DNA of 64,000 nt from Xestospongia bergquistia (lineage: Eukaryota > Porifera > Demospongiae > Haplosclerida > Petrosiidae). The stretch's first letter is position 1. Each line of letters opens with the position of its first letter. Shown here in pieces: positions 2,601 through 48,815 of this stretch. The DNA lies in the NCBI GenBank assembly GCA_963965975.1, contig OZ014421.1, positions 4,949,001 through 5,013,000 of the forward strand. The letters run 5' to 3'. The position numbers were made by a program, and so were the translations under genes. A model generated the notes under the pieces. The model was given only the letters and a program-made list of their open reading frames with translations, had not been told where the DNA came from and searched no databases.

Positions 2601-4965
2601 ATGAACAAAAGGAGCTGTGTTTATGTATTCATTGTGTTAATGGTATGTGTTCATTGTGAAACATTTCATGTGAATTATTGTGAGCCAGATAGTAAGTCAA
2701 TTCTATGAATGTTATGATAGTCATTGTATATGTAATGTCAAGCTAATATCAAAATAAATTGGCTTTTCCATCAGAAAACTCCAAAATGAGATAGCAAAGA
2801 TAGTTCTATATTTTATAAAATGAGTTAGATGGTTCTAGAACTAAGTGAAGTCATAAACAAAGAGTTACTTTTATAAATATAATGAACAAGTGCATGTTGT
2901 AGTGTTGATATTTAGATTTTGGACTGAAATGAGAGGGTCTGTTTTTACAAAAATAGTTATACAATGTATCTATGATATGTCATGTTGAATTAATGAAACC
3001 AAATGAGGGAATTTTTAAATCCAGAACTGTTATTAATTTATTCTATAACTATAATTACTAACTGTCCTGTTTTATGTGTTTTGGGAAAGTACTGGCTATT
3101 TGTAAGAAATTGTTATCATAATATGTAATTCTCAGGAAAAAAATAATACTTACACTTGTATCCATTAGCCAATTTATTGAATTAATCTTGTCATTTCTTA
3201 AATTCCTGTTTCCTATGTATCTATATTATTCAATGTAGATCCATTCATGTGTTTTATATACATTTCACATCTTTTCATTTTATAGATATTACACACTATT
3301 ATATTGCCAATGATAATCATATGGCAAACTTACAATGTTATACTAGTAAAGCTGTATTAGATGACACCTTTAAATGGAAATTAAAAAGACCAAACAATAC
3401 CATGGACATGTTATCTGAAACTGGTCCAAATTATATAATAACAAATGTAAGAACTTCTGATGAAGGTTCATATTCCTGTACTTTTAATACAACTACGAAC
3501 CAAGGTGTACCAGGAGACAATACTCTATGTCTAATAACACTAGGTATACAACCTTTCCTTTTTTCTTTTTCCTTTCTTTATATCCCTCTTTTCTGTTTTC
3601 TGTCCTTTCTTCTCCAAGTCAGTGTAGATGGTTTGGAAGTTAAACATTTTTTCTTTCTCTTCAGCCCTTCCTGTTCCCAATTTCTATATTGACAACACCA
3701 CTGTAGGCAGTGATACTACATTCAATATTAACATAAGCTATAACATGACTGGTAGTACTCAGGCTGTTTTGCCTGTGTCTCGTGTTCGAATTATAAAAAG
3801 CAGTACGATAGAGTTTGTGTGTAGTTCCAGTATTTCTACTCCAACTAAAGACAATATTGCATCTTGTTTTTTAAACAATAATGGTATGTTGAGTAATAGA
3901 CTGAGTTTAAGACAAGAAAACTCATACATTGAATCATTTGAGGTTATTTTACGTAATGTTAGTAATTCTGATGAAGGTGACTATACTCTAAGTGTTCAAG
4001 CTACTTTTAGTACTTCAAATACAGTAGTACAATTCACATATTCATCAACATGGAGTAAAATAGCAACTCTAATTGTATATTCAAGTAAGTAATATATTAT
4101 AATCAATGTAGCATGTCTTATTAATTAATTACCACATTACGTTAATTAACTAATATGTATTTTGCATATTACAAGCTTTTTTAAAGCATTGGTATTAATT
4201 ATACTTTAAAAGTTTCTCTATCTCTCTGTAATGTTCATTTTGAAGTTTATATAATGTCCTAAATACAAAGGAATAAAAGGATAAGTAAAATATTAATATT
4301 AGTTATAGACTTGTTGTCCTCATATTTAAACCATTATTTAATTATGAGGGGTTTTACTTGTATGTATTCCAATTTTTGTAAGTATATTTTATTTGCAATT
4401 TCTTAACTCTTTTTAGTTCAACCAACTAATAGCATTGTATTGTCAACAGAGCCAGGTATGTCACATGATATGTCACATGACAGTAAACACTACATGACAT
4501 CATCATCGAGTGCTAGTCCAAGTAGCATTGTATTGTCAACAGAGCCAGGTATGTCACATGATATGTCACATGACAGTAAACACTACATGACATCATCATC
4601 GAGTACTAGTCCAACTATGACAACTACTTACATAACATTGACATCAGAGATTTTATTTCCAACCAACACTTCTACTCCAACTTCTTCAAGTACATTATTT
4701 TGTAAGTTAATCACATGACTGACATAACACAATATTGAGCTTTTATATAGCAACTACACGTATTATTGTTGCTTCTGTCATTGGGACCACAATCTTAATT
4801 CTATTACTGGCTGTTATTGTTGTTGCTGCATTTTTTATTGAAAGACAACAACGTAGAAGTTCTTATAATGATAGAATAACAAATCTAGATGACAATGATA
4901 CTGTTAATCCACTGTATTTTGAAGGTGACATTTCAAATGGCAATTTAAAAAATATTCAGTACTAG
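2601..4965 (+). CDS. Ig-domain single-pass membrane protein, paralog A
   Basis: Five exons: 2601-2691, 3286-3543, 3665-4084, 4417-4701, 4751-4965; 422 residues. All introns are phase 1, so the inner exons are symmetric modules. Residues 1-19 are a signal peptide (hydrophobic YVFIVLMVC). Exon 2 (31-116) is an Ig-like domain with LQC, a core Trp (FKWKLK) and DEGSYSC. Exon 3 (117-256) is a second Ig-like fold with DEGDYTLSV but no clear second cysteine. Exon 4 is a Ser/Thr-rich mucin-like stalk with a 31-residue internal duplication. Exon 5 has a transmembrane helix (IIVASVIGTTILILLLAV) and a tail of about 40 residues with NPLYF. It is probably a cell-surface receptor or adhesion protein; ligand unknown. 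Paralogs B and C lie downstream on the same strand. Splice sites and frame close perfectly. I do not recognise a named family. Confidence 0.8.
4431..4616 (+). repeat. 93-bp in-frame tandem duplication in stalk exon
   Basis: Positions 4431-4523 and 4524-4616 are near-identical 93-bp units encoding SIVLSTEPGMSHDMSHDSKH and following residues. Paralog B has one unit, and its exon is exactly 93 bp shorter (192 versus 285 bp), so the gain is specific to paralog A. Confidence 0.9.
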
Positions 4966-9917: not shown

Positions 9918-12224
9918 ATGAACAAAAGGAGCTGTATTTATGTATTCATTGTGTTGATGGTATGTGTTCAATGTGAAACATTTCATGTGAATTATTGTGA
10001 GCCAGATAGTAAGTCAATTCTACGAATGTTATGATAGTCATTGTATACGTAATGTCAAGCTATTATCAAAATAAATTGACTTTTCCGTGCCATCTCAAGC
10101 ATAGCATGTGTTATCCATCAGAACACAATATTAAATAGTTAGTGATGTTGTTACTGTAACTGTTAGATAATTTTATAAAATGAGCTTGATAGTTCTAGTA
10201 AAGTCATAAACAAAGAATCGTTTATCAAGAAAAGTAAACAAGTGTTATAGTGTTGAAGTTTAGATTAATATTAATATACACTTAACCAATTCATTGAACT
10301 ACTCTTGTCATATTTTAAATTCCTGTTTACTGTGTTTACTATCTTCTGGGAAAGTACTGGCTATTTTTAAGGAATAGTTATCATGATATGTAATTCTCAG
10401 GAAAGAAAAAATATTTACACTTGTATCTATTAGCCAATTCACTCTTGTCATATTTTAAATTCCTGTTTGCTGTGTTTACTATCTTCTGGGAAAGTACTGG
10501 CTATTTTTAAGGAATAGTTATCATAATATGTAATTCTCAGGAAAGAAATAATATTTACACTTGTGTCCATTAGCCAATTCATTAAATTACTCTTCTCATT
10601 TTTTAAATTCATGTTTCCTATGTATCTATATTATTCCAATGTTGATCCATTCATGTATTTTATATACATTTAACATCTTTTCATTCTATAGACATTACAC
10701 ACTATTATATTGCCAATGATAATAGTACGGTAGACTTACATTGTGAGACTAGTGAAACTGTAGTAAATGACATCTATAAATGGAAATTAAAAAGACCAGA
10801 CAATACAATGACAATGTTATCTGAAACTGGTCCAAATTATATAATAACAAACGTAAGAACTTCTGATGAAGGTTCATATTCCTGTACTTTTAATACAACT
10901 ATGAACCAAGGTGTACCAGGAGACAATACTCTATGTCTAATAACACTAGGTATACAACCTTTCCTTTTTTCTTTCTCTTCTTTTTCAAGTCAATGTAGAC
11001 AGTTTGGAAGTTAAACATTTTTTCTTTCTCTTCAGCCCTTCCTGTTCCCAATTTCTATATTGACAACACCACTGTAGGCAGTGATACTACATTCAATATT
11101 AACATAAGCTATAACATGACTGGTAGTACTGAGGCTGTTTTGCCTGTGTCTCGTGTTCGAATTATAAAAAGCAATGTGATAGAGTTTGTGTGTACTTCCA
11201 CTATTTCTACTCCAACTAAAGACAATATTGCATCTTGTATTTCAAACAATAATGGTATGTTGAGTAATAGACTGAGTTTAAGACAAGACAACTCATACAT
11301 TGAATCATTTGAAGTTATTCTACGTAATGTTAGTAATTCTGATGAAGGTGACTATACTCTAAGTGTTGAAGCTACCTTTACTACTTTAAATACAGTAGTA
11401 CAATTCACATATTCATCAACATGGAGTAAAATAGCAACTCTAATTATATATTCAAGTAAGTAATATATTATAATCAATGTAGCATGTCTTATTAATTAAT
11501 TACCACATTACGTTAATTAACTAATATGTATTTTGCATATTACAGGTTTGTTTAAAGCATTGATATTAATTATACAATAAAATCTTCTCTATCTCTCTGT
11601 AATGTTCATTTTGAAATTTATATCATTTCCTAAATACAAAGTAAAATATTATTATCAGTTATAGACTCAATATTTAAACCATTATTTAATTATGAGGGGT
11701 TTTAATTGTATGTATTCCACTTTTTGTAAGTATTATTTTATTTGCAATGTCTTAACTCGTTTTAGTTCAACCAACTAGTAGCATTGTATTGTCAACAGAG
11801 CCAGGTATGTCACATGATATGTCACATGACATTAAACACTACATGACATCATCATCGAGGACTAGTCCAACTATGATAACTACTTACATAACATTGACAT
11901 CAGAGGTTTTATTTCCAACCAACACTTCTACTCCAACTTCTTCAAGTATGTTATTTTGTAAGTTAATCACATGACTGACATAAGAGCTTTTATATAGCAA
12001 CTACACGTATTATTGTTGCTTCTGTCATTGGGACCACATCCTTAATTCTATTACTGGTTGTTATTGTTGTTGTTGCTGCATTTATTATTGAAAGACAACG
12101 ACATAAAAGTTCTTATAATGACACAATAACAAATCTAGATGACAATGATACTGTTAATCCACTGTATTCTGAAGATGACATTTCAAATGGCAATAAAAAA
12201 ATTGGTGAACTTAATTTTTCTTAA
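9918..12224 (+). CDS. Ig-domain single-pass membrane protein, paralog B
   Basis: Five exons: 9918-10008, 10692-10949, 11036-11455, 11766-11957, 11998-12224; 395 residues, with the same phase-1 module structure as paralog A. A signal peptide (YVFIVLMVC) is followed by Ig domain 1 with LHC...DEGSYSC and Ig domain 2 with DEGDYTLSV, nearly identical to A. The stalk has a single 31-residue unit, then a transmembrane helix (IIVASVIGTTSLILLLVV) and a short tail that ends differently from A (KKIGELNFS). Substitutions are concentrated in Ig domain 1 (for example STVDLHCETSETVVND against HMANLQCYTSKAVLDD in A). That could reflect diversification of the membrane-distal face. Intact by frame and splice sites, so probably functional. 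Function unknown; surface recognition is an inference. Confidence 0.8.
10303..10582 (+). repeat. ~140-bp tandem duplication in intron 1 of Ig paralog B
   Basis: CTTGTCATATTTTAAATTCC begins two near-identical units at 10303 and 10443. Both contain GGGAAAGTACTGGCTATTTT. The corresponding introns of A and C have one unit. Confidence 0.8.
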
Positions 12225-13719: not shown

Positions 13720-16700
13720 GTGCTATAAGGTAAGCTTCATAAATAATGGGTTTCTATTTGTTTAACTTGTGGTTGTATTAGTAGATTTACGTTCTCTTTC
13801 TTGCAGTTTGTCTTTGTATACGTATAACATACATACTATTGTTTGTGGTTGATATTACAGATTGTTTTAGTGATAAGAGATGAATAGGTCTTGACCTCTT
13901 GGTAATTCAACTCTGTGTGGATGACCTCTTGGGCTAATCATATTTTATATTCTCTCTGTTTGTTTTATTAAACCTCTATCAATAATAGATTACCTTTGGT
14001 GTTCAGGATAGTTTTTTAAAAGTTCTCATTGTGTATCACATTTATTAATACTAGTTTATGATATAAGATTGATTTCTAGTTGAATATAATACTTCCAGGA
14101 CATGTAATCTGTATTGATGGCTAATGAACCAGACCCCCTATTTGAAGCTATATAGACACCAACTTGATTCATTGTCTAAGTTTTTAATGACAAACAATAG
14201 TTAATTCTGTGTCGGAGTATCACTATACTAACACTGGATGCTTTTATAGTATCACATATATAAACTGTAGTTGAAAGTATGTGTTTATTTGAAATGTTTA
14301 CTACCTTTTTAAGGTTTCCTAATCTTATCAATGTTGACTTGTTAACATTGTTAACTATTCTATATGTACATAATAGTCTATAATATGGAGTGTAGTAATC
14401 TATTTATATAATATGATTGTAGCTATCATATATCACCAGTGACTAAATGTGATATTCTAGATAGTTTTTGTATTAGCTTTTGCTGTACCAGTTAAAAATT
14501 CAACTCCCTGTAGTGTATGAGTGTAAGAATGCATGTGGGATTTTTTGTCATTCTAAAAATTAAATGTTTGGTATAGTTAACAATTAAGGGAATGTTGTGT
14601 TGTTATCATAGTAGTAGTATTAACCTTGAATAAGAATGTATACATTTACTCGCAATGACATACTTTAACCTCATGACTAAACATGATACTTCTTCCTCTT
14701 TGGTCATGCCCTTTACCTAATATGGCAACAAAGCATGCTAATCAGTATGTGATTGTTTTCTGTTGTCTACTCACTCTACTGAAGTAATATTGGATTGATG
14801 GAACTATGACATTATAAGGAAGTGTCCTTTTTAATGTATAATGACAGAATATCTTTGTTTTAATTTTGCTAACATTACTATAGTACATGCACTATACATA
14901 TAGTAACTGTATGTAGTATAGTGACATAACATCTGAAATGTCTGTAGCATTTTTATGAAAGCCAAACTTATATTTGTGTATATAATATACGCAAAAATGT
15001 TTGATTTTTTTAAATGTTTTTTTTTATTTTCATGTAGATATGAACAAAAGCTTCTGTATTTATTTATTCACCGTGCTGATAGTATGTGTTCATTGTGGAA
15101 CATTTCATGTGGATTATTGTGAATCAAATAGTAAGTCAATTCTCTGAATGTTATGATTATAGTATTATTTTTTCCTGATTAATGTCAAGCTATTATCAAA
15201 ATAAATTGACTTTTCCGTCAGAAAACTCCATAGTGAAATAGTGAAGATAGTTTTATATTTTATAAAATGAGTTAGATGGTTCTAGTGAAGTCATAAACAA
15301 AGATTTGCTTTGTTAAGTAAAGTAAACAAATGTAATAGTATTGATGTTTAGATTTTGGACTGAAATGAGAGGGTCTGTTTTTATAAAAAGTTATACAATG
15401 TGTCCATGATATGTTATGTTGAATTAATAAAGCCAAGTAAGGGTTTTTTTAAATCCACAACTGTTATTAATTTATTCTATAACTATAATTACTAACTGTC
15501 CTGTTTTATGTGTTTTGGGAAAGTACTGGCTATTTGTAAGAAATTGTTATCATAATATGTAATTCTCAGGAAAGAAATAATATTTACACTTGTGTCCATT
15601 AGTCAATTCATTAAATTAATCTTCTCATTTCTTAAATTCCTGTTCACTATGTATCTATTTTATTCAATGTTGATCCATTCATGTATTTTGTATACATTTA
15701 ACATCTTTTCATTCTATAGATATCACACACTATTATATTGCCAATGGTAATCATATGGCAAACTTACGTTGTGAGACTACTAAAGCTGTAGTAAATCACA
15801 GCTTTAAATGGAAATTAAAAAGACCAAACAATACAATGGAAATGTTAGATGAGACTGGTCTAGATTATATAATAACAAATGTAAGAACTTCTGATGAAGG
15901 TTCATATTCCTGTACTTTTAATACAACTATGAACCAAGGTGTACCAGGAGACAATACTCTATGTCTAATAACACTAGGTATACAACCTTTCCTTTTTTCT
16001 TTTTCCTTTCTTTAAATATCCCTCTTTTCTGTCCTTTCTCCTCCAAGTCAGTGTAGATGGTTTGGAAGTTAAACATTTTTTCTTTCTCTTCAGCCCTTCC
16101 TGTTCCCAATTTCTATATTGACAACACCACTGTAGGCAGTGATACTACATTCAATATTAACATAAACTATAACATGACTGGTAGTACTGAGGCTGTTTTG
16201 CCTGTGTCTCGTGTTCGAATTACAAAAAGCGGTACAATAGAGTTTGTGTGTAGTTCCACTATTTCTACTCCAACTAAAGACAATATTATTGCATCTTGTA
16301 TTTCAAACGATGATGGTATGTTGAGTAATAGACTGAGTTTAAGACAAGAAAACTCATACATTGAATCATTTGAGGTTATTCTACATAATGTTAGTAATTC
16401 TGATGAAGGTGACTATACTCTAAGTGTTGAAGCTACTTTTAGTACTTCAAATGCAGTAGTACAATTCACATATTCATCAACATTGAGTAAAATAGCAACT
16501 CTGATTATATATTCAAGTAAGTAATATATTATAATGGGAGTGACATGTATTAAAATATAATCTTAACTCTTTAGTTAATTTATTTGTAAATTGGTTACCA
16601 TAATTGCTATTGCTTGGCAATATATGTTTTACATGTACAAATTTCTTTTGGAGCATTACTTACTTGTTAAAGCCTCTCTCTCTATGTATATACATATAAT

Positions 16701-17675: not shown

Positions 17676-20600
17676 ATGGAGTTCGAAGCAAACAACTGTG
17701 ACGAAGAAACAACAGATGCAACGAATAAAAACACGAACAGTAAAGGTAAGATTACAGCAAATACTGACGTGGAGCAAATAAAATTGGAGAACCAAACTAC
17801 TAAACAACTTTACGCAAGTCTATTACATGAATATGAGGAGACGCGACATCAACTTGCCGAAGCGAGACTGCACATTGACCGTCTTAGATTGGGTGCTAAT
17901 GTAGACATACACAAGCATTACATACTAAATCACAACACAGTAGAAAATGCCACTATTCGACCGAGAATATCTGCTATCGTTGACTGCAATACACTTCCAA
18001 CAATAACTCTACCTCTTCCAGCAACAAGATTAATAGCAAATACCATTGTTAATGACAAACATGTTTGTAAAGCAGCAATGATGACAGAAAATGGAACACA
18101 GTGTTATCAGGACATTACCACAAGTGAAGATGAAGATGATACTATAATAGAACCTCACAATACTAGTGAAAATCTACAGCAGATCGCAAAACTTCAACAT
18201 CGACTAGCTGCATTGCATGACAAAACAAAAGATAGCGACATTTCCCTTGATGATATTTATTCTGAACTGATCGATTTACATCAGCTACACCAAGACCTAG
18301 CTAGCAATGTAAACAGCTGGAAAGAGACAAATGGAAACGATGATGATGACAATAAGATGGTTGAAGATGAGGTACAGTTTTTATCTTTTAATACTCTCAG
18401 ACTATATTATTGTTACAGCTAATAAAATTGGCTCAACAATTACAAGAGTTCACTGGGCTCTTGAAATTGAAATCTCAACAGTTAATACAAGCATCCCAAG
18501 ACAAGAAAAGGTTTGATGATGTAATAATGTTACCTTGCCAACAAATAATATATTATTATTATAGTGAAGAATTTACTTGTTGTATGATTACTTTTTTCTT
18601 TCTAATTTGCAAATTGTCAGTTTTTCTATATTCACACTCGATGTGTCTATTCCACCATTTATCACCAGTAATTAATAGAAATGTGTTATTAATTTATTAT
18701 CACTAACCTAATAAGTAATGATTATTAACACTATAGAAGGCAAGGCAATACCTTGTTTCATTTGTCAACAAACTGTTTTGTTGGTAATATAACCTATTTT
18801 TGCTAAATCCCTAAACTCTAAAATTGCAAAAAAAATGCTAACAAGAAAAAAATATGTCTCAATTATAAGCTGATTACTCAAACTTTTTGTTCTTGTCTCA
18901 TTTTAGGGAAAACACTGAATTGTCTTTGCAGAGCAATACAGCTAGTGATTCTAATCTTGAGGTAATACAATGACTTTACAGAAGATGTTGTGATGCATCC
19001 TTCATATTATAGATACATGGATGTAATCATGAAGTCCCAGCTCATTTTTTCATAGCAACCAAAAGCAACACTCAATCGCTTACATCTGATTTCACTGAAT
19101 CAAATGCATCCTCAGCAAATTCTTTAACTCTCCAAAAACATCAAATGTACATACCTGAAGATATTGAGAACACCTTCAAAACTGAGATATCATATCATGA
19201 GCCTCAGACTATCAGTCCTTCCTGTTACACTCATGCCCATATTAGACCCCAGACTAGTAGTCAGACTCAAACCCAGATGAATGCTCATAGTCCTTCCTAT
19301 CAGACTCATACCCATATCAACCCTCAGACTGGTAATCCTTCCTATTGGGATCATACCAATACTGAGTGTCAGACCAGTAATCCTTCTAATCAGACATATA
19401 CTCATATGGAACGACATATGTCCAGTCCCTCCTATCAGACTCATAGTAGTCAGTCTCATACCCATACCAAGCCTCAGACTGGCTATCAACCTCATAGTAG
19501 TCAGACTCAAACCTTTATGGAGCCTCAGACTGGTAATCCATCCCATGAGACACATACCCATACAAAGCCTCATGGTCTTTCCAATCAAAATTGTACCCAT
19601 ATGAGGCCTCATAGTCTTTCCAATCAGACTCATACCTCTACTGAGCCTCAGACTCACAGTACTTCCAATCAGATTTATACCCATACCAATCCGCAGACCA
19701 ACAGTCCTTCCTGTCATCATACTGAGCCTCAGATTCGCAATCCTTCCTATCAGATTTGTACTCACACTGAAGGGCATCAGACTGGTAGTCCTCCCTATCA
19801 GACTCATACTCATATGGAACCTCAACCTCAGTGTAGTAGTCCTCTCTACCAGACTCATACTCATGCAAATCCTCAGTCTGATAGTCTTCCCTATCAGACT
19901 CGTACTCATATGGAACCTCAATCTGGTAGTCCTCCCTATCAGACTCATTCTCATATGGAACCTCAGTGTAGTAGTCCTCTCTATCAGAATCATACTCATG
20001 CAAATCCTCAGTCTGATAGTCCTCCCTATCAGACTCGTACTCATATGGAACCTCAATCTGGTAGTCCTCCCTATCAGACTCATTCTCATATGGAACCTCA
20101 GTGTAGTAGTCCTCTCTACCAGACTCATACTCATGCAAATCTTCAGTCTGATAGTCCTCCCTATCAGACTCGTACTCATATGGAACCTCAATCTGGTAGT
20201 CCTCCCTATCAGACTCATTCTCATATGGAACCTCAGTGTAGTAGTCCTCTCTACCAGACTCATACTCATGCAAATCCTCAGTCTGATAGTCCTCCATATC
20301 AGACTCATTCTCATACGGAACCTCAGTGTAGTAGTCCTCTCTACCAGACTCATACTCATGCAAATCTTCAGTCTGATAGTCCTCCCTATCAGACTCGTAC
20401 TCATATAGAACCTCAACCTCAGTGTAGTAGTCCTCTCTATCAGACTCATACTCATGCAAATCCTCAGTCTGATAGTCCTCCCTATCAGACTCGTACTCAT
20501 ATGGAACCTCAATCTGGTAGTCCTCCCTATCAGACTCATTCTCATATGGAACCTCAGTGTAGTAGTCCACTCTACCAGACTCATACTCATGCAAATCCTC

Positions 20601-23600
20601 AGTCTGATAGTCCTCCCTATCAGACTCGTACTCATATGGAACCTCAACCTCAGTGTAGTAGTCCTCTCTATCAGACTCATACTCATGCAAATCCTCAGTC
20701 TGATAGTCCTCCCTGTCAGACTTGTACTCATATGGAACCTCAATCTGGTAGTCCTCCTTGGACTCACAGTCCCTTCTATCAGACTCGTACCTATGTGAAG
20801 CCTCAGACCAATACCACTAGTAGAGCAGATGCGCAGACGCATCTCAGTGCCATGACTCCACTGATGATCCCAGTTACCTTAGCAACCACAAACAAATGGC
20901 TACCATCTCCAGAGGTTTATTATTCATCTGCACATGTCAATACCAATATACAACCATCTTCTCCTATTAAGACACTTCCAGTTCAAAACAATGCTACTAA
21001 TAGTTCTTCCTTACTTGTAGGGACAGGCCTGTATTCTTCTCCTCAGTCAACCTGTACTATGACTAATTCAAAAATTCATCAATCTGATCATACTTCTCAG
21101 GGACCAGTGGTACAACGACCACAAAACATACATCCTATGACTGTAAACCCTTCAATACAGATTCCAACTCTCAACTCAGTTAACAATATTCCAGTACCAC
21201 AGGCACATAATCCTTCAAATATGGCAGATTTACAGCATCAAATACTTAGAACAGAAGTTAATCCATCTTTACAGAAACCTATAGCACCTAACCATGTCTC
21301 AGTAGGTCCTACCACAACACCTTTTAATGATATCTCAACTGCTAGTTTTTCACAACAGTTTAAAGCACCTAGCCATGTCTCAGTAGGTCCTACCACAACA
21401 CTTTTTAATGATATCTCAACTGCTAGTTTTTCACAACAGTTTAAAGCACCTAACCATGTCTCAGTAGGTCCTACCACAACACCTTTTAATGATATCTCAA
21501 CTGCTAGTTTTTCACAACAGTTTAAAGAACCTAACCATGTCTCAGTAGGTCCTACCACAACATCTTTTAATGATATCTCAACTGCTAGTTTTTCACAACA
21601 GTTTAAAGCACCTAACCATGTCTCAGTAGGTCCTACCACAACATCTTTTAATGATATCTCAACTGCTAGTTTTTCACAACAGTTTAAAGAACCTAACCAT
21701 GTCTCAGTAGGTCCTACCACAACACCTTTTAATGATATCTCAACTGCTAGTTTTTCACAACAGTTTAAAGCACCTAACCATGTCTCAGTAGGTCCTACCA
21801 CAACACCTTTTAATGATATCTTGACTGCTAGTTTTTCACAACAGTTTAAAGCACCTAGCCATGTCTCAGTAGGTCCTACCACAACACCTTTTAATGATAT
21901 CTCAACTGCTAGTTTTTCAAAACAGTTTAAAGCACCTAACCATGTCTCAGTAGGTCCTACCACAACATCTTTTAATGATATCTCAACTGCTAGTTTTTCA
22001 CAACAGTTTAAAGAACCTAACCATGTCTCAGTAGGTCCTACTACAACACCTTTTAATGATATCTCGACTGCTAGTTTTTCACAACAGTTTAAAGCACCTA
22101 ACCATGTCTCAGTAGGTCCTACCACAACACCTTTTAATGATATCTTGACTGCTAGTTTTTCACAACAGTTTAAAGCACCTAGCCATGTCTCAGTAGGTCC
22201 TACCACAACACCTTTTAATGATATCTCAACTGCTAGTTTTTCAAAACAGTTTAAAGCACCTAACCATGTCTCAGTAGGTCCTACCACAACATCTTTTAAT
22301 GATATCTCAACTGCTAGTTTTTCACAACAGTTTAAAGAACCTAACCATGTCTCAGTAGGTCCTACTACAACACCTTTTAATGATATCTCGACTGCTAGTT
22401 TTTCACAACAGTTTAAAGCACCTAACCATGTCTCAGTAGGTCCTACCACAACACCTTTTAATGATATCTTGACTGCTAGTTTTTCACAACAGTTTAAAGC
22501 ACCTAGCCATGTCTCAGTAGGTCCTACCACAACACCTTTTAATGATATCTCAACTGCTAGTTTTTCAAAACAGTTTAAAGCACCTAACCATGTCTCAGTA
22601 GGTCCTACCACAACATCTTTTAATGATATCTCAACTGCTAGTTTTTCACAACAGTTTAAAGAACCTAACCATGTCTCAGTAGGTCCTACCACAACATCTT
22701 TTAATGATATCTCAACTGCTAGTTTTTCACAACAGTTTAAAGCACCTAACCATGTCTCAGTATGTCCTACCACAACACCTTTTAATGATATCTTGACTGC
22801 TAGTTTTTCACAACAACAGTTTAAAGCACCTAACCAAGTCTCGGTAGTTCCTATCACAACACCTTTTAATGATATCTCAAATGATACTTTTTCACAACAG
22901 TTTAAACCTCAATCTGCTCACAATTTACAACCTCAACAACATCCTACACCAATCATCTCTTCTATGCAGACGCCAATGCATTATATACCAACAACAGATC
23001 AGTTACATTCTTCTTTACCAGCGCCTGTTACTACGATGTACCTACCACCATACAGTGCACCCATCACTGCAGCTTCAGTATCCTTTTCTGGCACGTCTAA
23101 ACATCACAAGCCGTTACGACCTTCATCGCTGCCTCACAATTCAATGGATAATCTTCATTCACTGTACAATACTCCTTCTATCAATGATATGTACCAAGAA
23201 CAACCTATGTATACTAGTAATGCTCAGTCACATGACAAGTCACATGACAGATTTCCACTGTCTGTTCATACTAGCAGCAATCAAAGGTTGACTGAACTTA
23301 CGAAATCTTGTTACCCCTCTCTTTCAGGGATAGATGTAAGTAATCAAAGAACTGTTTATCCCTCAGATGCTCCTAGCATAATGGCTATACATCAAAAACC
23401 AAGTAACACTCAACCATTTTTAGTGCAAGAAAGCTCTAACCAAGGAAATCACACAAATGATGATAGCACTATGAGAAGTACACCTGTTGATACTCCTCGA
23501 AGTTCCCATCAATTAACTAAAAATCAGAGAGCAGTACATAGTACTTCAAAACCAACAGGTTATGACAGACAAAAAGGATCATCTTCTAACATAGTGTCAC

Positions 23601-25772
23601 CATCATCTGTGGAAAGGCCTCCTCGTCATCGCATAGTACCATTTGAAAAAGAACCAGTGACTTCTCAATCATTACATTATGACATTGACTCTGACAGCAG
23701 TGGATCAACTGATCACAAATTAGGACCAGAAAGAACACGAACAAAACATAGACATCCAAAAGATGAGAAAGGTCAAGCCGGCTATAATCGCAGAGCTCAA
23801 AAGGGTAAATCAACCATCTCTAAACCTAAAGAAAGACCCTCTACAACCTCTTTAGAAAATACAAAGACTCTAAAGAGAGTTCTACCACATATTCCTTCTC
23901 CTCCACGACCTGAGAGCTTCAAGACTAGTCAACAAAATTGGCCAGATCAAAAAAATAAAGGTAAGTTAATGAAATAATTACTTTAAGTATAACAATCATT
24001 TATCTACAGGCTTGATACCAGTTCAGCACCACTTTGCAACAGAGATGGACAGTGGGTTTGTAGAATCAGAGGACACAAGACATCAACAGAATCCATCTCC
24101 ACTTGTCTACCCGGGTGATACCTATCAATCTGTGTTGAGTAGTGAGGATGAAAATCATCACTCAATTGATCATGAAAGAGACAGGAGGGACACTGATGTA
24201 TCTAGTGTGGCATCCTCAAAAGCAAGTCATAATACAGTGTAAGTAATATCTAATGTATGAGATATTGTGTACTATTGCTTCCTTCTAGAGCTGCCATTGA
24301 TTCTCTGCGACAAGATTTTGTCAATTTAAAAGAAGAATTACAAAGTATTATGCAAAAACCAGACACGCAAGAGGTAAGCAAGTCCTTAAGGATTGATAAT
24401 TCTGAGCCTGAACAACAGTATAAAACTGGAAAGGTATCAACTCCTTTACAATTGTCAAAACCAGCTCATAAAAGACATCGAGGAGAGAAAGTGACATTAA
24501 ACAAGTCTCATAGAAAACGTCTGCACAAGAGAGGTGTTGATAAAGCCATTACTGCCTGTCCAGTTCAACATGACAAAGAAACTCAAGCATCATTTCTTAA
24601 TACATCCCACACTCACAACACATCAAATAGAATTCGATCTAAAGATCAACCTCAAAAAATTATTCATCGTTACAAACCTATAATTCGTTCCTCTTCATCA
24701 CTTGAGTCATTATCTTCTTCAATAGAGACAACATTAAATCAAGATAGTTCTGTTACTAGTCTAAGTACTATAGTTACTCCAGTGAGAAAGCACACAGCCA
24801 AAAAATATTGGCAGCAGTACAGTGAGAGTGAAGATAGCATTGTCAGGGGATCAAAATACACAGGAACTAGCAACAATGGGAGTAGATTATCTAGTGAAAA
24901 TTCTGACAATGAACATAAAGGTAACTCCAAGTACCAATTTAGGTCATCGTCCAGGAAACCCACACAGATACTGACCACTTACGATTCATCACCTCATCAT
25001 TATATGGAAGATACTGAACAAACAATTTTGTTATCACTACCTCAGAGACCAAAACCAAAACATAAAGAATTTCATAAATCCAGACCAAATTCCTCAGGAA
25101 CACATATATTAGAATCAACACCTACAACAATGCGTACAAGAAAATCACATCATAATGTCAGACCTATACCACCTCATTCCAATATACCAAATCCTCCTCA
25201 CATTTATTGTAATAACAACAAGAGACACACCCACTTCTCAGTCCCTCATAATGAAGATCATAATCATTGTGATACATGCTACCCTCATCCTACAAATCTT
25301 ACTAGAAGTTTATCTAATATATCTGAACTTCATACCAGAGAAAATAGAAACCAGCCACAAAGAACAATAATTCTTGAAACATTACCTTTTTCAAGTATAG
25401 CTAAAGTGGTAGATACTAACAGCAGAGACCAATTACCAATAGTATCATTTGATGAACAAACCAGAGACCAGTTACCAGTAGTAGCAGTTGATGAACAAAC
25501 CAGAGACACATTACCAGTAGTAGCATTTGATGAACATACAAAGGTAATAAAGGTATTTAGAATACAATGTCAGAACTTTTATACATCAATTACTATACAC
25601 AGTTATACATAGTAATACTATAATCTGCTAATTATAAAGGTTGTGTTACTTTCTATAGGTAATCCTGGATACAGTGAGTTTAGACGAGGCAGAGGAATTA
25701 GCTGTAAAGCTAAAGAGATCTTCTGAGCGAATTAATAGAAATCTCAGAGACAAAATGTCACTTTCAAATTAA
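17676..25772 (+). CDS. 2465-aa repeat-rich coiled-coil protein (possibly AKNA-like)
   Basis: Seven exons: 17676-18371, 18419-18510, 18907-18961, 19013-23960, 24010-24238, 24289-25552 (alternative donor at 25543), 25659-25772; frames join exactly. Residues about 44-77 form a charged coiled coil ending in HIDRLRLGANVDI. Exon 4 is a 1649-residue Ser/Thr/Pro/His/Gln-rich disordered region with two tandem arrays (about residues 538-883 and 1039-1579). The C-terminus has another helical segment (DSLRQDFVNLKEELQSIM), basic clusters and a final amphipathic helix (EAEELAVKLKRSSERINRNL). From memory, the LRLGA-ended coiled coil and C-terminal helix recall centrosomal AKNA-type proteins, but I cannot confirm this. 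Otherwise it is an unclassified disordered scaffold. Its convergent neighbour is KLHL20, and a decayed fragment of exon 6 lies near 13 kb. Confidence 0.75.
19780..20815 (+). repeat. Coding tandem array, 45-bp subunits in ~135-bp higher-order units
   Basis: The array encodes degenerate 15-residue units such as SSPLYQTHTHANPQS, DSPPYQTRTHMEPQS and GSPPYQTHSHMEPQC, which cycle as a three-unit (135-bp) higher-order repeat with occasional deletions. More diverged units of the same type extend upstream to about 19200. The period is a multiple of three and the other frames lack stops, which creates long spurious ORFs in all directions. Confidence 0.9.
21284..22906 (+). repeat. Coding tandem array, 20 x 81 bp with four-unit higher-order period
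   Basis: There are twenty 27-residue units (APNHVSVGPTTTPFNDISTA + SFSQQFK; unit 19 has one extra Gln). Units 7-10, 11-14 and 15-18 repeat the same variant order (ILTAS; APSH...SKQFK; TTTSFN; EPNH), a 324-bp higher-order repeat. Units 19 and 20 are the most diverged, as expected at an array edge. Confidence 0.95.
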
Positions 25773-41153: not shown

Positions 41154-41243
41154 CTTCTATGAGTTATAATCGACCACGCCTTTTCAGGGTGTGGTTACCT
41201 TTCCTTATAAACTTCAAGCGGACAGTTATCAAATAATCCAACA
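41154..41243. promoter_or_regulatory. Divergent promoter RABGEF1/CARD gene
   Basis: 90 bp between start codons. An inverted pair ACCACGCC...GGGTGTGGT (about 41172-41196) gives two CACCC/KLF-type boxes in opposite orientation with a 6-8-base loop. Confidence 0.6.
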
Positions 41244-42182
41244 ATGTCAGCGTCACTAACAGAACAAGATTTACTCAATATCAAACAGACTGTCCTGACT
41301 TTAGAACGACAAGAAATAGCGAGGAATATTGACCCAAGAAGATTCTTTGGCCATTTACGATCAAAATACGTATTCGACGAAAGAGACTGCGATGAAATTC
41401 GTGCGATCACGTCAAGAATTGGCTCGGCAGAGTTATTTGTAGACGTGTTGAAACGAAAAGGAGCTCACGGATACGACGAGTTCTGCAATGCTCTCATGAA
41501 AGATCAGACGCAAATGTTCCTATTACAACGAATGACACAAACATTAGAGCTACTGAGAGCCAAAGTTATAGAGAGAAAACAAGGTTAGTACTCATCTTTA
41601 TATAGTATGTTAATATTCTGTTTGTTTACAGCAATGAAGTTAACTCCACAGCAATTATATCCAGTCCAAGTAGGCATTGCTCCACAAAGTCGACTTCATT
41701 TTCCACCACCTTATAGAAACCCCCTCCATGTTGCTCCTAATGAGTTCCAATATTTTCCTGGTCATTCTGCTGCACAACATCTTCAACAACCTTGTCATCC
41801 TAGTAGTGTGCATAAACCTCTAAGAAAAGTAAACTCACGTCACTCTGACAGTGACATGATCACACCTGAACCAAATAATACTTTCAATAACCCAACAATT
41901 ATACCAGAGGAAAAACAACCAATACATCACATTTATCATCCCACAAATGTGACGACCTCACAGCCATTGCCCCCTACTCTACACTTTCCTGGAAGCATGT
42001 ACCAACCACCCCCCATTTCCCAACCTCTTTACGTACACAACAATCCTTGGTTACCCTCTGAGTCTATTAACGTGGGTGGAATGCCCATAAGTGGAAATTA
42101 CTCGCCTGTGGAATCAGGCCCTTGTGGTCAACGGTTGGTATGCAGATGCGCAGAAGAACAGGCTGTTGAGAATACAACTTAA
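41244..42182 (+). CDS. CARD-domain protein with Pro/His-rich tail
   Basis: Two exons: 41244-41583 and 41632-42182; 296 residues. Residues about 8-110 fold as a predicted six-helix death-fold domain, best read as a CARD. The pattern LLNIKQTVLTLERQEIARNI, FFGHLRSKYVFDERDCDEI and AELFVDVLKRKGAHGYDEFC, ending in short helices, fits CARD spacing. CARDs recruit partners in apoptotic and NF-kB/innate signalling. The tail is low-complexity, rich in Pro, His, Gln and Tyr (LHFPPPYRNPLHVAPNEFQ), with no other domain; it ends GQRLVCRCAEEQAVENTT. It is divergent from RABGEF1 and convergent with PSMD5. Partner and pathway are unknown. A different death-fold subtype (DD or DED) is possible. Confidence 0.7.
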
Positions 42183-42734: not shown

Positions 42735-44617
42735 TTACATTTCTTCATATGCCACAGTTGTTTCTTCAATTACACAGAAAGGACCTTCTGACGCATATAC
42801 TTTGAGTTTTAAGTATGTAGGACTGCCAAATATTTCCTCAGAAGTGGAAGAAGTTGCAAGCTGTTGAATGATTGCATATTTTAGTTCCTTTCCTTCCTTC
42901 TCTGTCTCTGTACGACGATCGAGGAGATACTCAACAAAGCCAGGAAACTTTTTCATCTCATTCTGACCCCATTTCCAATTAGACATACTCATTAAGAGAC
43001 GAAGACATGCATATCGTATATCGAGAAATGGTTGCTTGACTATTGACATGATAATTGCCATAAGATTGGGCGTGGCTAGTAAAAACCAGTTACAACTAGT
43101 TGAATCTTCATTGCTGTCTTCTTCACATGAAAAAATCATAACAAAAGCATTCAAAGCTCTTATTTGAAGATCTGGTTTTGATTGGGTTACAAATTCACCA
43201 AGTTTTTTAATGGCATTTGATGTCTCCTCTGGATGTTGAGCTAATGCTAATCTACCATTCAAAGAAGAGCCCATTAAAGCAAGTGTATCAACTGCAACTC
43301 CCCAGATTGTGTCATCTTCAGGAGAGAAGATGGCTGAGAGAGTGGCATGTAAGAATTGAGGGTAACGTGAGCAGATGACAAGGTAATCTACTCCTTCTTT
43401 TTGACAGTAGTTCCCAAAAAACTTGATAATACCTGAGAGTAAAAAGGTTGCATGATATTGCTAAAATACTCGTTTAGTCAGTAGTGGCATTCCAATGGAG
43501 CATTATATTTAATAATTATTGCAATAACAATTGAAAAATGACTTGTACAAAGGAATATTACGTTAAAATTACATTAATAATACTTTATCCAACGATTCCA
43601 ATCGTTCAATATAGAACTGAACATTGGCAAAGGATGTCAAAACACTTTGGATATAGAACAAATTGTACCAGTTAACAATACATTCTAGACTAGTTTAACA
43701 TTCCATTATAGCTACATAACATGGGAAGGTAGATATAACAAACACATCTACTAAATAGGTGTGTGTATCTAGAAATACCCACCTGGCACAAGAACAGATG
43801 CAAATGGATCCTGATTTGCAGGCATTAACAGGCTGTGTAGTTTCTTCATTACATCTGCAGATTCAACAACTGTCAATCCACGAGGAGATTCAGTTAAAGT
43901 TTGTAACAGCTCTAAACAATTAAGCTTCAAAAGAACATCATCTGATTCCAATTCTCCGATAAGTTTGTCAATGTTTCCAGTACTTTGAACAAATTCAAAC
44001 ACCTCACTGCTAATGCAAGCTAAGTGCACTATCAATTCATACACTCTAAAACGGACAATGTCACCATTACACATAAGACCTTCAAGATCAAGAAAGAATC
44101 CAGCCTTGAAATGAGCAGTAATTACAGCCAAACATGATGGCTTAGATATCAAATATCTTAAAAGATTAGAAGCATATTTTGCACATTCTAAGTTTTCATC
44201 TCCAAGCAATTGAGTAATTAAATGAAACATAGTTGGTTGTAGAATAATTTCATGGAAAGATTCATCTACCATTACTTTCTGCATGAGTAACTTCACACAT
44301 AGCAACCGTACACCTTTATAAGAATGTTGTAAGCCTAATTGAACTTGCTGACTCATCTTATTCCATTCGGCAAATGGAAATGCATTAAGCATTTTTGCCA
44401 ATACAGCACAGACAAGATCCATGACTTCCAATGGTCTGTCATTGGGTACTAAATACAAAAATAACAATTGAGGGTTAATAATTGATGCCACCTGAAGGAT
44501 CTCAGTGTTAGAAGAAGCACATTCAAGAAGGGTATTTAAGGCTTCCAAAGAGTCTGTACTTGATTTGTCTGCCTCTAGACTGTCTCTGAGGGCTATTAGA
44601 CGATTGATTTCAGCCAT
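42735..44617 (-). CDS. PSMD5: 26S proteasome assembly chaperone PSMD5 (S5b)
   Basis: Two minus-strand exons: 44617-43783 and 43432-42735 joined in phase 1; 510 residues (human 504). It is an all-helical HEAT/ARM-type protein. PSMD5 binds the base ATPase PSMC2 and chaperones 19S base assembly in the cytosol. Diagnostic stretches are DIVRFRVYELIVHLACISSE, DPFASVLVPG then IIKFFGNY, WGVAVDTLALMGSS, FPGFVEYLLDRRTE and the C-terminal EIFGSPTYLKLKVYASEGPF, which aligns with the human end. The frame stays open upstream to 44746, but the chosen Met (MAEINRLIALRD) matches the family N-terminus and leaves space for the divergent gene at 44703. The intron (43433-43782) is 350 bp with no insert recognised. 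Confidence 0.9.
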
Positions 44618-44702
44618 TATGTTGAGGAGAGTGCTGAATGTATCCACGTGGATAATATACCGTAAAGTAAATTCAGCTGCTTTAATAACTGGACACAAAA
44701 AT
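44618..44702. promoter_or_regulatory. Divergent promoter PSMD5/NDT-EF-NDT gene with E-box palindrome
   Basis: 85 bp between inferred start codons. A perfect 14-bp palindrome TATCCACGTGGATA (44641-44654) contains a CACGTG E-box. If PSMD5 instead starts at 44746 this would be coding. Confidence 0.55.
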
Positions 44703-47700
44703 ATGTCCACCGAGTAATATTGAAGTGATTTGAAAGCTTTCATCAATGAATGTGACAGAAATTGGAGAATTTACCAGGCAAGTTACATTATCTCCAGTCC
44801 CCCTAGTTTGCATTATTTCTCTCTAAGCAGTAGAACAGCCATCACTTACAGAAAGCACATACATGGATCACAACCAAGCAATGTAGAGCCCACTTCTGAT
44901 ACTCGACAGAAATATGTACAAGCCTTTTCAGAGTTGAAGTTACATGTAACTGTTAATCAAGGTAAATTAAAGGAATCTTGTTAATTAGTGCCCTGTTTTT
45001 GCATGATGTTGTTAATGGATTGATATTCTAAATAGCTATGGAGTTGTGGTATGGAATTTTGTGTTCATTGGTATGAATATTTTTAGTTCAACAGATGTTG
45101 AGAAGAGCTATGGAAGGCAAAGACGATCTGGAGAAACAAGAGAGAGGTAGATAATAGTGACATGAAATGTTTAAAATAGATATGCTTATACAATTCAGGC
45201 TTTAAACGGTAATAGTGCTATTACTAGTTATTACTAGTTATTATTATAGTTTATAATATAAGTTGTATACTCCCATTAATTTAATAGGTAATAAAATCTT
45301 AATTTGTTTAAGGTTTCAACCATATTGAAGAATTTTAAATTAAATTTATTGTTTTTATTATGTCTTATCAAGAGTTATCTCTTGGAGAGTTTAATGTATT
45401 CTCTATTGAATTATTATTGGGTAATATTGAGGATACTCTGTCAGCTCAGTAAGTGTGGTTAGTGGTTTAATCTTAATATTTTATAATAACTAGATCAGAT
45501 TCGAATCTCTGTCATTTGTATACCTCAAGTCCTAATACAAAAAAAAGAGGTGAATGGATGGACGGATGGATGAATGGATGAATAGATGGATGGATGGATA
45601 GGATGAATAGATTATATTTTATTTGTGAAAAATAAATGGATGAAGAGACATATTGATGGATGGATGCCATTGAATGAATGAAGACATTTATACAATATAT
45701 ACTAATATTATACTAAACACTCATTTTTTTATACTAGATGGACAATGTTTATATGAAGGTATGTACAAGCTATAGAGCATATGTCTTAAATGGACATTTT
45801 ATTCTCAGTGTTCCTTGGTGGTTCATGTAACCCAACTGTGTGGAGAAAAGAGATAACGATACCAATATTACAAAATGAAGGAATCACATATTATAATCCT
45901 GTGAGTATAAAGAGAGAAAGAGAGACAGATCACATATTATAATCCTTTGAGCATGAAGAGAGAAAGAGAGACAGATCACATATTATAATCCTTTGAGCAT
46001 GAAGAGAGAAAGAGAGATAGATCACATATTATAATCCTGTGAGTATAAAGAGAGAAAGAGAGACAGATCACATATTATAATCCTTTGAGCATGAAGAGAG
46101 AAAGAGAGACAGATCACATATTATAATCCTTTGAGCATGAAGAGAGAAAGAGAGATAGATCACATATTATAATCCTTTGAGCATGAAGAGAGAAAGAGAG
46201 ACAGATCACATATTATAATCCTTTGAGCATGAAGAGAGAAAGAGAGACAGACAAAGAGACAGGAAAACAAACTCCTTTCTTCTTTTAGCAAGTGGATCAT
46301 TGGTATCCAGAATTAGTAGAAATAGAAGAACAAGCTAAAGAGGTATGTCTCCTCATTCAAACTATACATTAATAGTTATTACCTGTATTTTATAGGGTGC
46401 ATCACTTTTGTTATTTGTTGTTGATAACCAAACTAGAGCTGTCTCTTCAATGGTAGAAATAGGGTTTTTGATAGGTCTGTCTGTATCTCCATTAATATTC
46501 TCTTAACAATATCTGTTTTTAGGACGTGGACGAAGATTAGTAGTTGTTATTAGTGATATTGTTGGAGATAGTCCTTGTGTAGCTGGTGAATCACTTAATG
46601 AAATGTGAGAGAACTAAATATGTGACTATAATCTCTCTCTCTCTCTCTCCAGAGAAATCAAAGAATTAAATGATGGACGAGAATTTATAAGAGATATAGT
46701 TAATATTCATAATATTTTAATTGAGCCCACTATAAGACATGGTACAGAGACAATTGTGAAAGTGAGTGTGTGTGTGTGTGTGTGTGTGTCAGCTCATATT
46801 TAAATGATGTAGATTACACAAAATTTGTTAACAAAAAAAGAATTGGCAGAGAAATTAACTCATACTAAATTAAATATTGGATGTCTAGGAGATTTGTTAA
46901 GGTAATGTGCATCTATAATATTGTTTATTCATCTATTTATTTGTTTTTCCGTCCATTGATTCAATCATCTGTCCATTTATCTATCCATGTGTTCGTTTGT
47001 CCGTCCATTGATTCAATCATTTGTCCATTTATCCATCTATGTGTTCACTTGTGTGTCCATTGATTCGATCATATTTCATCCTTATGTTCACATGATCGTC
47101 CATTGATTCGATCATTTGTCCATTTATCCATCCATGTGTTCACTTGTCTGTCCATTGATTGTCATCTGTCCATTTATTCATCCATTTATCCATATAGACA
47201 ACTCAGACAAGTTTTTACTATGTATGATACTGATAGAAACCAATCACTAACACTAATGGAGGTACAGGAGCACTTATGTCAAGTACAGCTGCCATATTTA
47301 TTGTTTAGGCTTGTTTGGCTCTCCGCTCTCTCCAATTACTCTCTGATCCTCTCCCAACGTCTCTCGAATCATTTCTTTCAAATATTCCTACAAACTGGTC
47401 CAGCAATGGACTGACATTTGAAGAATTTTGTCTCTTGTATGCAGAGTTAAAATATAAACTTATACAACAGTCTAAAAGTGGATGGTTAAAAACAATTGGT
47501 TCCTATTTGTGGACACCTGTTGAGTGGGTATCAGGTATGAGTCTCTGTCTTTTAGTATGGGTTTCAGTTTCAATTTAGGATGGATATGGTCAAAACCTTG
47601 TAGTCCTATGGTGTCCAGTTATAACTATGATGTGTTTCTTGGAGGGAATTGTGGGTGTGCTACATGGAGGAATGATATTACAATACCAATATTAAGGTTT

Positions 47701-48815
47701 GTACATAAAATATGTCCTTTTCAAATGTAGGAAACTTAACCAAAGGGGGGAGGAGTCAACCTCTTAATACATAATAGTACCACCTTTTAAGATATATGCA
47801 CATGAGGTACTACCTCACATGTGATGACGTCTTTCGTTTGTGAGTCCTTACTCAGTGTTTCCTCTTGTTCAGCATGCTAACTCCTTTGAATGTTAAAGTC
47901 ATCTCCAGTATAGACAAGTTTGAGTAAAGATGAATCGCTCATTTGTATTCATTCAGGCAACATGGTGTCTCTTATTTCCATCCTCAAATGCAAAAATTTG
48001 ACCCTTTAATGTTTTCAATTGAAAGAAGAGCCAAGGAAGATAGCAACATCTTACTCTTTGTTATTTCTAAGGATACAACAGCTGTCACATGTTTGCTTGA
48101 GGTATAACAATGTGGGTGTATAAACATATTGTTGTTTATTCTCCTATAAAGGCTGCTTATTATATTGGTCTCTGCAGAAGAGTTGTATTATGTATACAAA
48201 ATATTGATGAGTGTAGTGGTCTGGACGATATTAAGGTAGACATTCTATCAAATGTACTTTTTCCATTATTTCAATGTATTCCTACATTTTTATAACTGAT
48301 TCTTTCAGATTTCTTTATTAATCCATCTATTCATCCAACAATGGTTTATATGTCCATCTATCCATTTATTTATCCATCCATCCATTCATTCATCCATCCA
48401 TCCATCGATCCATTCATTCATACATCCATTCATTCATCCATCGATCCATTCATTCATCCATCCATTCATTCATCCATCCATCCATTCATTCATCCATCCA
48501 TCCATCAATCCATTCATTCATCCATCCATCCATCAATCCATTCATTCATCCATCCATCCATTCATTCATCCATCCATCCATCCATCCATTCATTCATCCA
48601 TCCATTCATCCATTCCACAGTTAACCACTAAAGCAATCAGAGACTACAACAGAGCCAGGTCCTACCTCACATGTGTCGCTAACAAAAATAGAGTACCAGT
48701 ATTTGCTGATGTCAGCGAAGCTACGCTATGTTGTGTCTATAAACTTAAAGGTTATAAACTTCATCTTACACATGATGGCCGTCATAAAAAATCACTCTTA
48801 GGAACAAGCGTGTGA
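44703..48815 (+). CDS. Twin nucleoside deoxyribosyltransferase-like protein with EF-hand
   Basis: Eighteen exons: 44703-44713, 44831-44961, 45087-45146, 45373-45448, 45494-45549, 45738-45758, 45809-45900, 46289-46342, 46396-46474, 46523-46604, 46653-46761, 46813-46901, 47198-47261, 47309-47534, 47579-47696, 47957-48101, 48152-48235, 48621-48815; 563 residues. Domain 1 (about 117-230): [25 protein letters not shown] and [14 protein letters not shown] with E188. An EF-hand loop [12 protein letters not shown] (297-308) has ligands at 1, 3, 5, 7 and 12. Domain 2 (about 400-530): [26 protein letters not shown] and [14 protein letters not shown] with E471. The pattern fits the nucleoside 2-deoxyribosyltransferase-like family, whose Glu is the nucleophile; I recall a related domain in Drosophila raw. 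Substrate unknown. The N-terminus is helical. Exons 1 (11 bp) and 6 (21 bp) are the least certain. Confidence 0.75.
45883..46258 (+). repeat. 46-bp tandem repeat spanning a 5' splice site, 8 copies
   Basis: Units start ATCACATATTATAATCCT at 45883, 45929, 45975, 46021, 46067, 46113, 46159 and 46205. The first is the end of the coding exon 45809-45900, with its donor GTGAGT. The copy at 46021 also has GTGAGT; the other six read TTGAGC. A GAGAGAAAGAGAGACA filler links the units. Confidence 0.95.
48350..48617 (+). repeat. (CATCCATT)n tetranucleotide array ending at a splice acceptor
   Basis: About 270 bp of TCCA/TTCA tetranucleotides run directly into ATTCCACAG and exon 48621. Similar shorter arrays precede acceptors at 47197, 32771, 54458 and 55164. 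Confidence 0.9.

Follow-up and report, generated by a model that had tools for sequence, protein, structure and literature searches.

Positions 44703-48815 (plus strand) of a 64,000-nt stretch of Xestospongia bergquistia DNA (contig OZ014421.1, positions 4,949,001 to 5,013,000; hereafter the window) fit a single gene, whose 543-residue product carries two repeats of the PF15891 family (Nuc_deoxyri_tr2, Nucleoside 2-deoxyribosyltransferase like) on either side of an EF-hand-like pair. Our favoured reading, which we put forward tentatively, is that of one soluble protein, likely a poriferan member of the Raw/OLRN-1 type, whose activity would be tuned by Ca2+. The protein may be anciently related to stress-signalling proteins of worms and flies.

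Two PF15891 repeats flanking an EF-hand-like pair

Manual reconstruction of the gene, guided by its splice sites and reading frames, gave 16 exons instead of the 18 of the original prediction, at 44703-44713, 44759-44961, 45087-45146, 45738-45758, 45809-45900, 46289-46342, 46396-46474 and 46523-46604 (exons 1-8) and at 46653-46761, 46813-46901, 47198-47261, 47309-47534, 47579-47696, 47957-48101, 48152-48235 and 48621-48815 (exons 9-16). All 15 introns are GT-AG, nine of them measuring 44-53 nt, and the 1632-nt coding sequence is open with a single stop. Retention of 14 of the introns would add in-frame stops, while retention of intron 11 shifts the frame instead. The gene span, both motif copies and the EF loop noted originally were reproduced. 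The original residue numbering runs 20 ahead of ours: the sites given as E188, E471 and loop 297-308 correspond to E168, E451 and 277-288, respectively.

Intron 5 consists mostly of a tandem repeat (45883-46251, 8 copies of 46 bp, 95% matches) whose unit duplicates the 3′ end of exon 5 including the splice donor. An intact CCT/gtgagt donor is retained in one of the internal copies (~46036-46044).

The two repeats could alternatively belong to two separate genes. Two features speak against this: the EF-hand exons join their neighbours on either side in frame, and no AATAAA is present between the repeats, the nearest being at 45631 and 49358; the weaker ATTAAA is found between them at 46665 and 46869. 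Since no strongly hydrophobic segment is present (the best 19-residue hydropathy, 1.48, lies inside the repeats), the protein is best read as soluble, as judged from its sequence.

In the Pfam search, PF15891 matched two stretches of the protein (E 2.5e-39, 134.3 bits, cut-off 30), and repeat 2 alone scored 61 bits against the same cut-off. Repeat 1 (R1) covers residues ~97-187 and exons 5-8 (45809-46604); repeat 2 (R2) covers residues ~380-470 and exons 13-15 (47579-48235). They are 44% identical over 86 residues (39.6% on a larger alignment), with an alignment score of 231 compared to a maximum of 51 among 1000 shuffles, which excludes a chance origin of their likeness. Introns interrupt R1 and R2 at different places and the duplication is therefore probably old. 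Searches of both repeats against PADLOC and NCBIfam gave no match at E <= 1, and PHROGs gave a single weak match for R1, to a family of unknown function. A six-frame PF15891 search of the sponge's own genome returned no match at E <= 0.001; as even the present gene escapes it when read one exon at a time, the search is uninformative on paralogues.

Between the repeats, residues ~264-343 (exons 10-12, 46813-47534) matched PF13499 at 1.5e-4 with 22.5 bits for the whole protein, and with an approximate 25.7 bits for a fragment query two residues off. Both values are below the cut-off of 30 and we therefore use the term EF-hand-like for this region, which is consistently placed though weak in score. 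Loop 1 (residues 277-288, 47226-47261) is near-canonical, with D1, D3, N5, S7, T9 and E12. It fits the PROSITE pattern PS00018 over 12 residues, a 12-mer pattern that arises in 97 of 20000 shuffles; position 13 is an alanine, not a hydrophobic residue, so the strict 13-residue pattern fails. The loop, originally called canonical, deserves this name for its 12 positions but not for position 13. Loop 2 (residues 316-327, 47390-47425) is degenerate: T at position 1 and W at position 3 replace the usual ligands and E12 is kept. A search of PDB sequences gave 21 matches at E <= 1, 20 of them in the EF-hand-like region, the best being weak (E 0.011); 19 of these 20 bear the name of an EF-hand protein or of a fusion with one, and the twentieth has no name. 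The remaining match, KRas, aligns to R1.

Another sponge protein, Ilborin, is described in published excerpts as likewise soluble, of similar size and with a predicted EF-hand domain pair. Kinship was rejected, as the same excerpts describe a TIM-barrel enzyme domain with a C-terminal EF-hand, hence a different family.

Fold, conserved carboxylates and relatives of the repeats

The structure of a relative from a viral contig, 41% identical to R1, was predicted with a pLDDT (predicted local distance difference test) of 92.8. The model shows the five-stranded alpha/beta fold of nucleoside 2-deoxyribosyltransferases (NDT) and DNPH1, also called DrHyd, and is similar to YtoQ, DNPH1 and deoxyribosyltransferases and, next in order, to TIR domains, with the SARM1 TIR and C. 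elegans TIR-1 among the Foldseek matches. Together with the PF15891 match, this model supports an NDT/DNPH1-type fold for R1 and R2, as had been proposed. The classical nucleoside deoxyribosyltransferase family PF05014 was rejected, since its score of 13.1 bits is below the cut-off of 28.8. When PDB sequences were searched with a profile of the relatives, 7 matches were obtained at E <= 10, none convincing (best 0.036, Kelch proteins), and DNPH1/RCL and nucleoside 2-deoxyribosyltransferase were absent from these seven.

To define conserved positions we used relatives from plasmids and phages (six records), prokaryotic genomes (50 loci of 65 pattern matches) and viral contigs (80 of 223). The 134 candidate proteins came to 109 once short or identical ones were removed, and these were aligned with R1 and R2. 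Positions are called invariant when identical in all of the 109 relatives having a residue there, a feature of this sample and not of the Pfam definition. Eight positions are invariant (R1 numbering: L101, G103, the Thr at 104, R111, P129, W134, E142 and E168), and the same eight were found in a separate alignment of 76 sequences; W110 (98%) and C105 (90%) are near-invariant. R1 retains seven of the eight, with Thr replaced by Ser (S104), and both near-invariant residues. R2 also keeps the latter but only six of the former, with Thr to Asn (N387) and Trp to Phe (F417) changes, and carries His in place of Asn at 411, the equivalent of N128 in the NP motif.

The glutamate pair is conserved in 100% of the aligned relatives and present in both repeats, 26 residues apart in each. 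E142 (codon 46325-46327), in the helix before strand 3, is a candidate acid/base that would occupy the position of DNPH1 D80, and E168 (46456-46458) a candidate nucleophile at the putative position of DNPH1 E104; their R2 counterparts in the alignment are E425 (48021-48023) and E451 (48099-48101). The two nucleophile candidates originally proposed thus fall on an invariant position. The description of two active-looking domains was generous: the pair is kept in both, but the copies are unequal, since R2 has more substitutions, of Thr, Trp and the NP-motif Asn, and a longer branch (see below).

The fold and the glutamate pair, which resembles the acid/nucleophile pair of DNPH1, could indicate a nucleotide-pool enzyme with no relation to Raw/OLRN-1 signalling, either DNPH1-like or a deoxyribosyltransferase of the salvage route. 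We consider this quite improbable. The protein differs from DNPH1 and NDT by its tandem repeats and EF-hand, and the DNPH1 catalytic Tyr is not evident. In addition to the low PF05014 score, a pair of tandem repeats of which one is drifting, together with an EF-hand, would look more like a regulated signalling protein, and the layout resembles that of OLRN-1. It also sets the protein apart from its relatives. Thirteen prokaryotic and viral PF15891 proteins scanned with Pfam, some of them scoring below the PF15891 cut-off, each carry a single copy, either by itself or in fusion with TIR and other parts, and no EF-hand was found in them, in contrast to the two copies flanking an EF-hand-like pair observed here.

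A subgroup of relatives has LFGTCG where others have FLGGTC (L006, at 1276-1917, L023 and L034). L006, from Variovorax, lies upstream of an AAA ATPase gene; its match has no listed coding sequence, the gene table of the plasmid being incomplete.

A TIR open reading frame (ORF) was present within the fetched stretch at 11 of the 50 prokaryotic genome loci, and in 6 of these 11 it is fused to a PF15891-type domain. These counts are not fully independent, as 4 of the 11 loci come from one Bacteroidales assembly, and the background rate of TIR genes is not part of the comparison. The TIR profile used derives from five TIR segments, taken from these loci and from the Aureispira plasmid, four of the six fusions having supplied segments. 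Pfam finds TIR in all six fusions and in a large neighbour protein of a seventh locus; the PF15891 part is below cut-off in two of the fusions (29.9 and 24.6 bits). The Aureispira plasmid carries a stand-alone PF15891-type gene with a TIR gene directly after. No TIR hit occurred at the 80 viral loci, where the flanks were shorter (2 kb versus 4 kb), making them an unfair control. The bacterial fusions (L039, L045, L052, L053, L055 and L056) are large proteins of 443-1402 residues, some cut by contig ends, with an N-terminal PF15891 followed by TIR and, in some, by LRR, FGE-sulfatase or WD40-like parts. They are possible conflict-system proteins.

A different possibility is that the sponge repeats themselves act on NAD+ as a TIR/SARM1-like NADase or cyclase, in the same pathway as the related TIR domains. 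Several observations point this way: TIR, DrHyd and SLOG have been grouped as one clade of nucleotide-processing domains (excerpts of PMC9503650), the Foldseek matches include SARM1 and TIR-1, six of the 50 prokaryotic loci have the domain fused to TIR, and the Raw-homology domain is described, in excerpts of a 2023 paper, as structurally predicted to contain TIR. However, no TIR family match was found in the 543-residue protein at E <= 1 (Pfam), on which grounds TIR membership was rejected, and TIR domains (SARM1, TIR-1, ThsB), although of the same broad Rossmannoid class, rank below NDT/DNPH1 in structural similarity. This activity is unlikely. On our reading, the published TIR prediction for Raw would reflect the related NDT/DrHyd fold taken for TIR.

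The origin of the repeats was approached with a FastTree phylogeny (110 rows, 89 columns, midpoint root). R1 and R2 are sisters (0.85) and their group joins two candidate-phyla bacterial proteins (0.92), both scoring below the PF15891 cut-off. The branch of R2 is longer than that of R1 (1.27 versus 0.48). An old bacterial source with a later duplication in eukaryotes is only hinted at by this tree because the sequences are short. Of the LFGTCG subgroup, L023 and L034 are nearest to R1 and R2; L006 is not among the rows.

Comparison with Raw and OLRN-1

Kinship with Raw and OLRN-1 is inferred from published descriptions (lengths and positions). According to excerpts of PMC2213652, to which the OLRN-1 statements of this section refer, C. 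elegans OLRN-1 is a 'Raw repeat' protein related to Drosophila Raw, and OLRN-1b carries repeats of 32-33 residues at 77-108 and 396-428 in a chain of ~540 residues, a length we took from the end of a published C-terminal deletion, residue 539. In the 543-residue sponge protein, conserved 32-residue blocks lie at 99-130 and 382-413 and the EF-hand region spans 264-343. The two layouts resemble each other, with two short repeats in a chain of similar length and a distinct element in between, the repeat spacing being 283 here and 319 in OLRN-1b. In OLRN-1 this element is a hydrophobic hairpin (~264-304), whereas it is an EF-hand-like pair here, and no hairpin was found between the sponge repeats, as judged by the hydropathy given above. 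The hairpin is not family-defining, since Raw lacks it.

A further likeness concerns the unequal copies. R1 is the better-kept copy and R2 is drifting; deletion of the first OLRN-1 repeat nearly eliminated activity while deletion of the second did not greatly diminish it. This parallel is not clean, and several published results weigh against it. A figure legend states that an OLRN-1 transgene lacking repeat 1 still rescues significantly. Rescue is abolished by deletion of 429-539, which on our reading would take out what is left of the second fold domain, and activity is reduced by the missense change G466E, located 70 residues from where the second repeat starts. Because of the latter two, the second copy of OLRN-1 may be more important than its first 33 residues imply. 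The candidate nucleophile stands 69 residues into each repeat here, in a register uncertain by several residues relative to G466.

At the functional level, genetics places OLRN-1 between voltage-gated calcium channels and the CaMKII/ASK1 cascade, and inhibition of calmodulin was suggested by its authors as a possible role. Across flies and worms, Raw and OLRN-1 have roles in dorsal closure, axon degeneration, synaptic growth and neuronal asymmetry. Excerpts of the 2023 paper call the mechanism of Raw a challenging question and report that it antagonises dSarm output at synapses, yet promotes injury-induced degeneration. Our literature search found no paper joining Raw/OLRN-1 to deoxyribosyltransferases, and the PF15891 name or accession appeared in no paper searched. 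In a limited search of published excerpts, paired PF15891 repeats around an EF-hand were not found either. Raw is presumably annotated with PF15891 in InterPro/FlyBase.

Taken together, these comparisons suggest that the protein is probably an EF-hand-bearing relative of Raw/OLRN-1 instead of a free-standing novelty. The arrangement had been called unusual; since OLRN-1 has two Raw repeats in ~540 residues, paired repeats in one animal chain are probably ordinary, and the EF-hand between them would be the unusual part.

How the protein might work can be proposed as follows. R1 would bind a nucleotide; this ligand might be of the NAD+/ADP-ribose type or a deoxynucleotide. R1 may also cleave the N-glycosidic bond of the ligand, E168 serving as nucleophile and E142 as acid/base, whereas R2, a drifting copy, would act as partner or pseudo-enzyme. 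Ca2+ on the first EF hand would move the repeats relative to each other and tune activity, with output on the stress-kinase pathway also using TIR-1/SARM1, as with OLRN-1 and Raw. Both catalysis and calcium gating are hypothetical, though plausible.

About as likely as this proposal, though short of an even chance, is a non-catalytic nucleotide sensor or scaffold, in which the repeats are retired NDT-fold domains with a nucleotide or a partner protein as ligand, the EF-hand does no more than shape the linker, and Raw and OLRN-1 are scaffolds of kinase pathways. Excerpts of the published accounts of Raw/OLRN-1 mention no enzymatic activity, and loss of the second OLRN-1 repeat costs little. In the sponge protein neither repeat retains the invariant Thr, the Trp is missing from R2 and one EF loop is degenerate. 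Nevertheless, R1 keeps both carboxylates and seven of eight invariant positions after long divergence, which a pure scaffold would not need.

A broader scenario, doubtful at present, extends the Ca2+-tuned reading to the whole family. Raw/OLRN-1 proteins would have started out as Ca2+-gated nucleotide N-glycosidases, their source being a bacterial PF15891 domain that functioned alongside TIR domains. In the sponge, the EF-hand would still sense Ca2+ directly and switch R1, whose product, or the depletion of its substrate, would tune TIR-1/SARM1-ASK1, while the worm would have lost calcium sensing and gained a membrane anchor.

If Raw and OLRN-1 do belong with the sponge gene, their repeats would be nucleotide N-glycosidase-fold domains with a named carboxylate pair to mutate, and the question of Raw's mechanism would therefore be directly testable. 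An EF-hand in an early animal would then hint at the reason for the action of OLRN-1 at the calcium-to-kinase step, and the genetic link to SARM1/TIR-1 would find an evolutionary explanation in the bacterial TIR fusions.

Neighbouring genes and other frames of the window

The likely start codon of a PSMD5-like gene on the minus strand (44617) lies 86 bases from the ATG at 44703. The two genes may therefore share a promoter, presumed head-to-head (44617-44703). The window is animal DNA, as judged by its ORFs with Ig, CARD, BTB-Kelch, PSMD5-like and PEX2-like matches. The CARD ORF (41211-41588; PF00619, 3.6e-9) is located past the PSMD5-like gene and is followed by a proline-rich frame.

An ORF pair occurs in three similar tandem copies, at 3186-4092, 10646-11463 and 15674-16524. 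In the first copy, one ORF matches an immunoglobulin domain above the Pfam cut-off and the other weakly; the two further pairs resemble it by eye. Finally, an open frame of 1654 residues (19013-23977) contains internal repeats in which His, Thr, Ser, Pro and Gln are abundant and is accompanied by long antisense frames.

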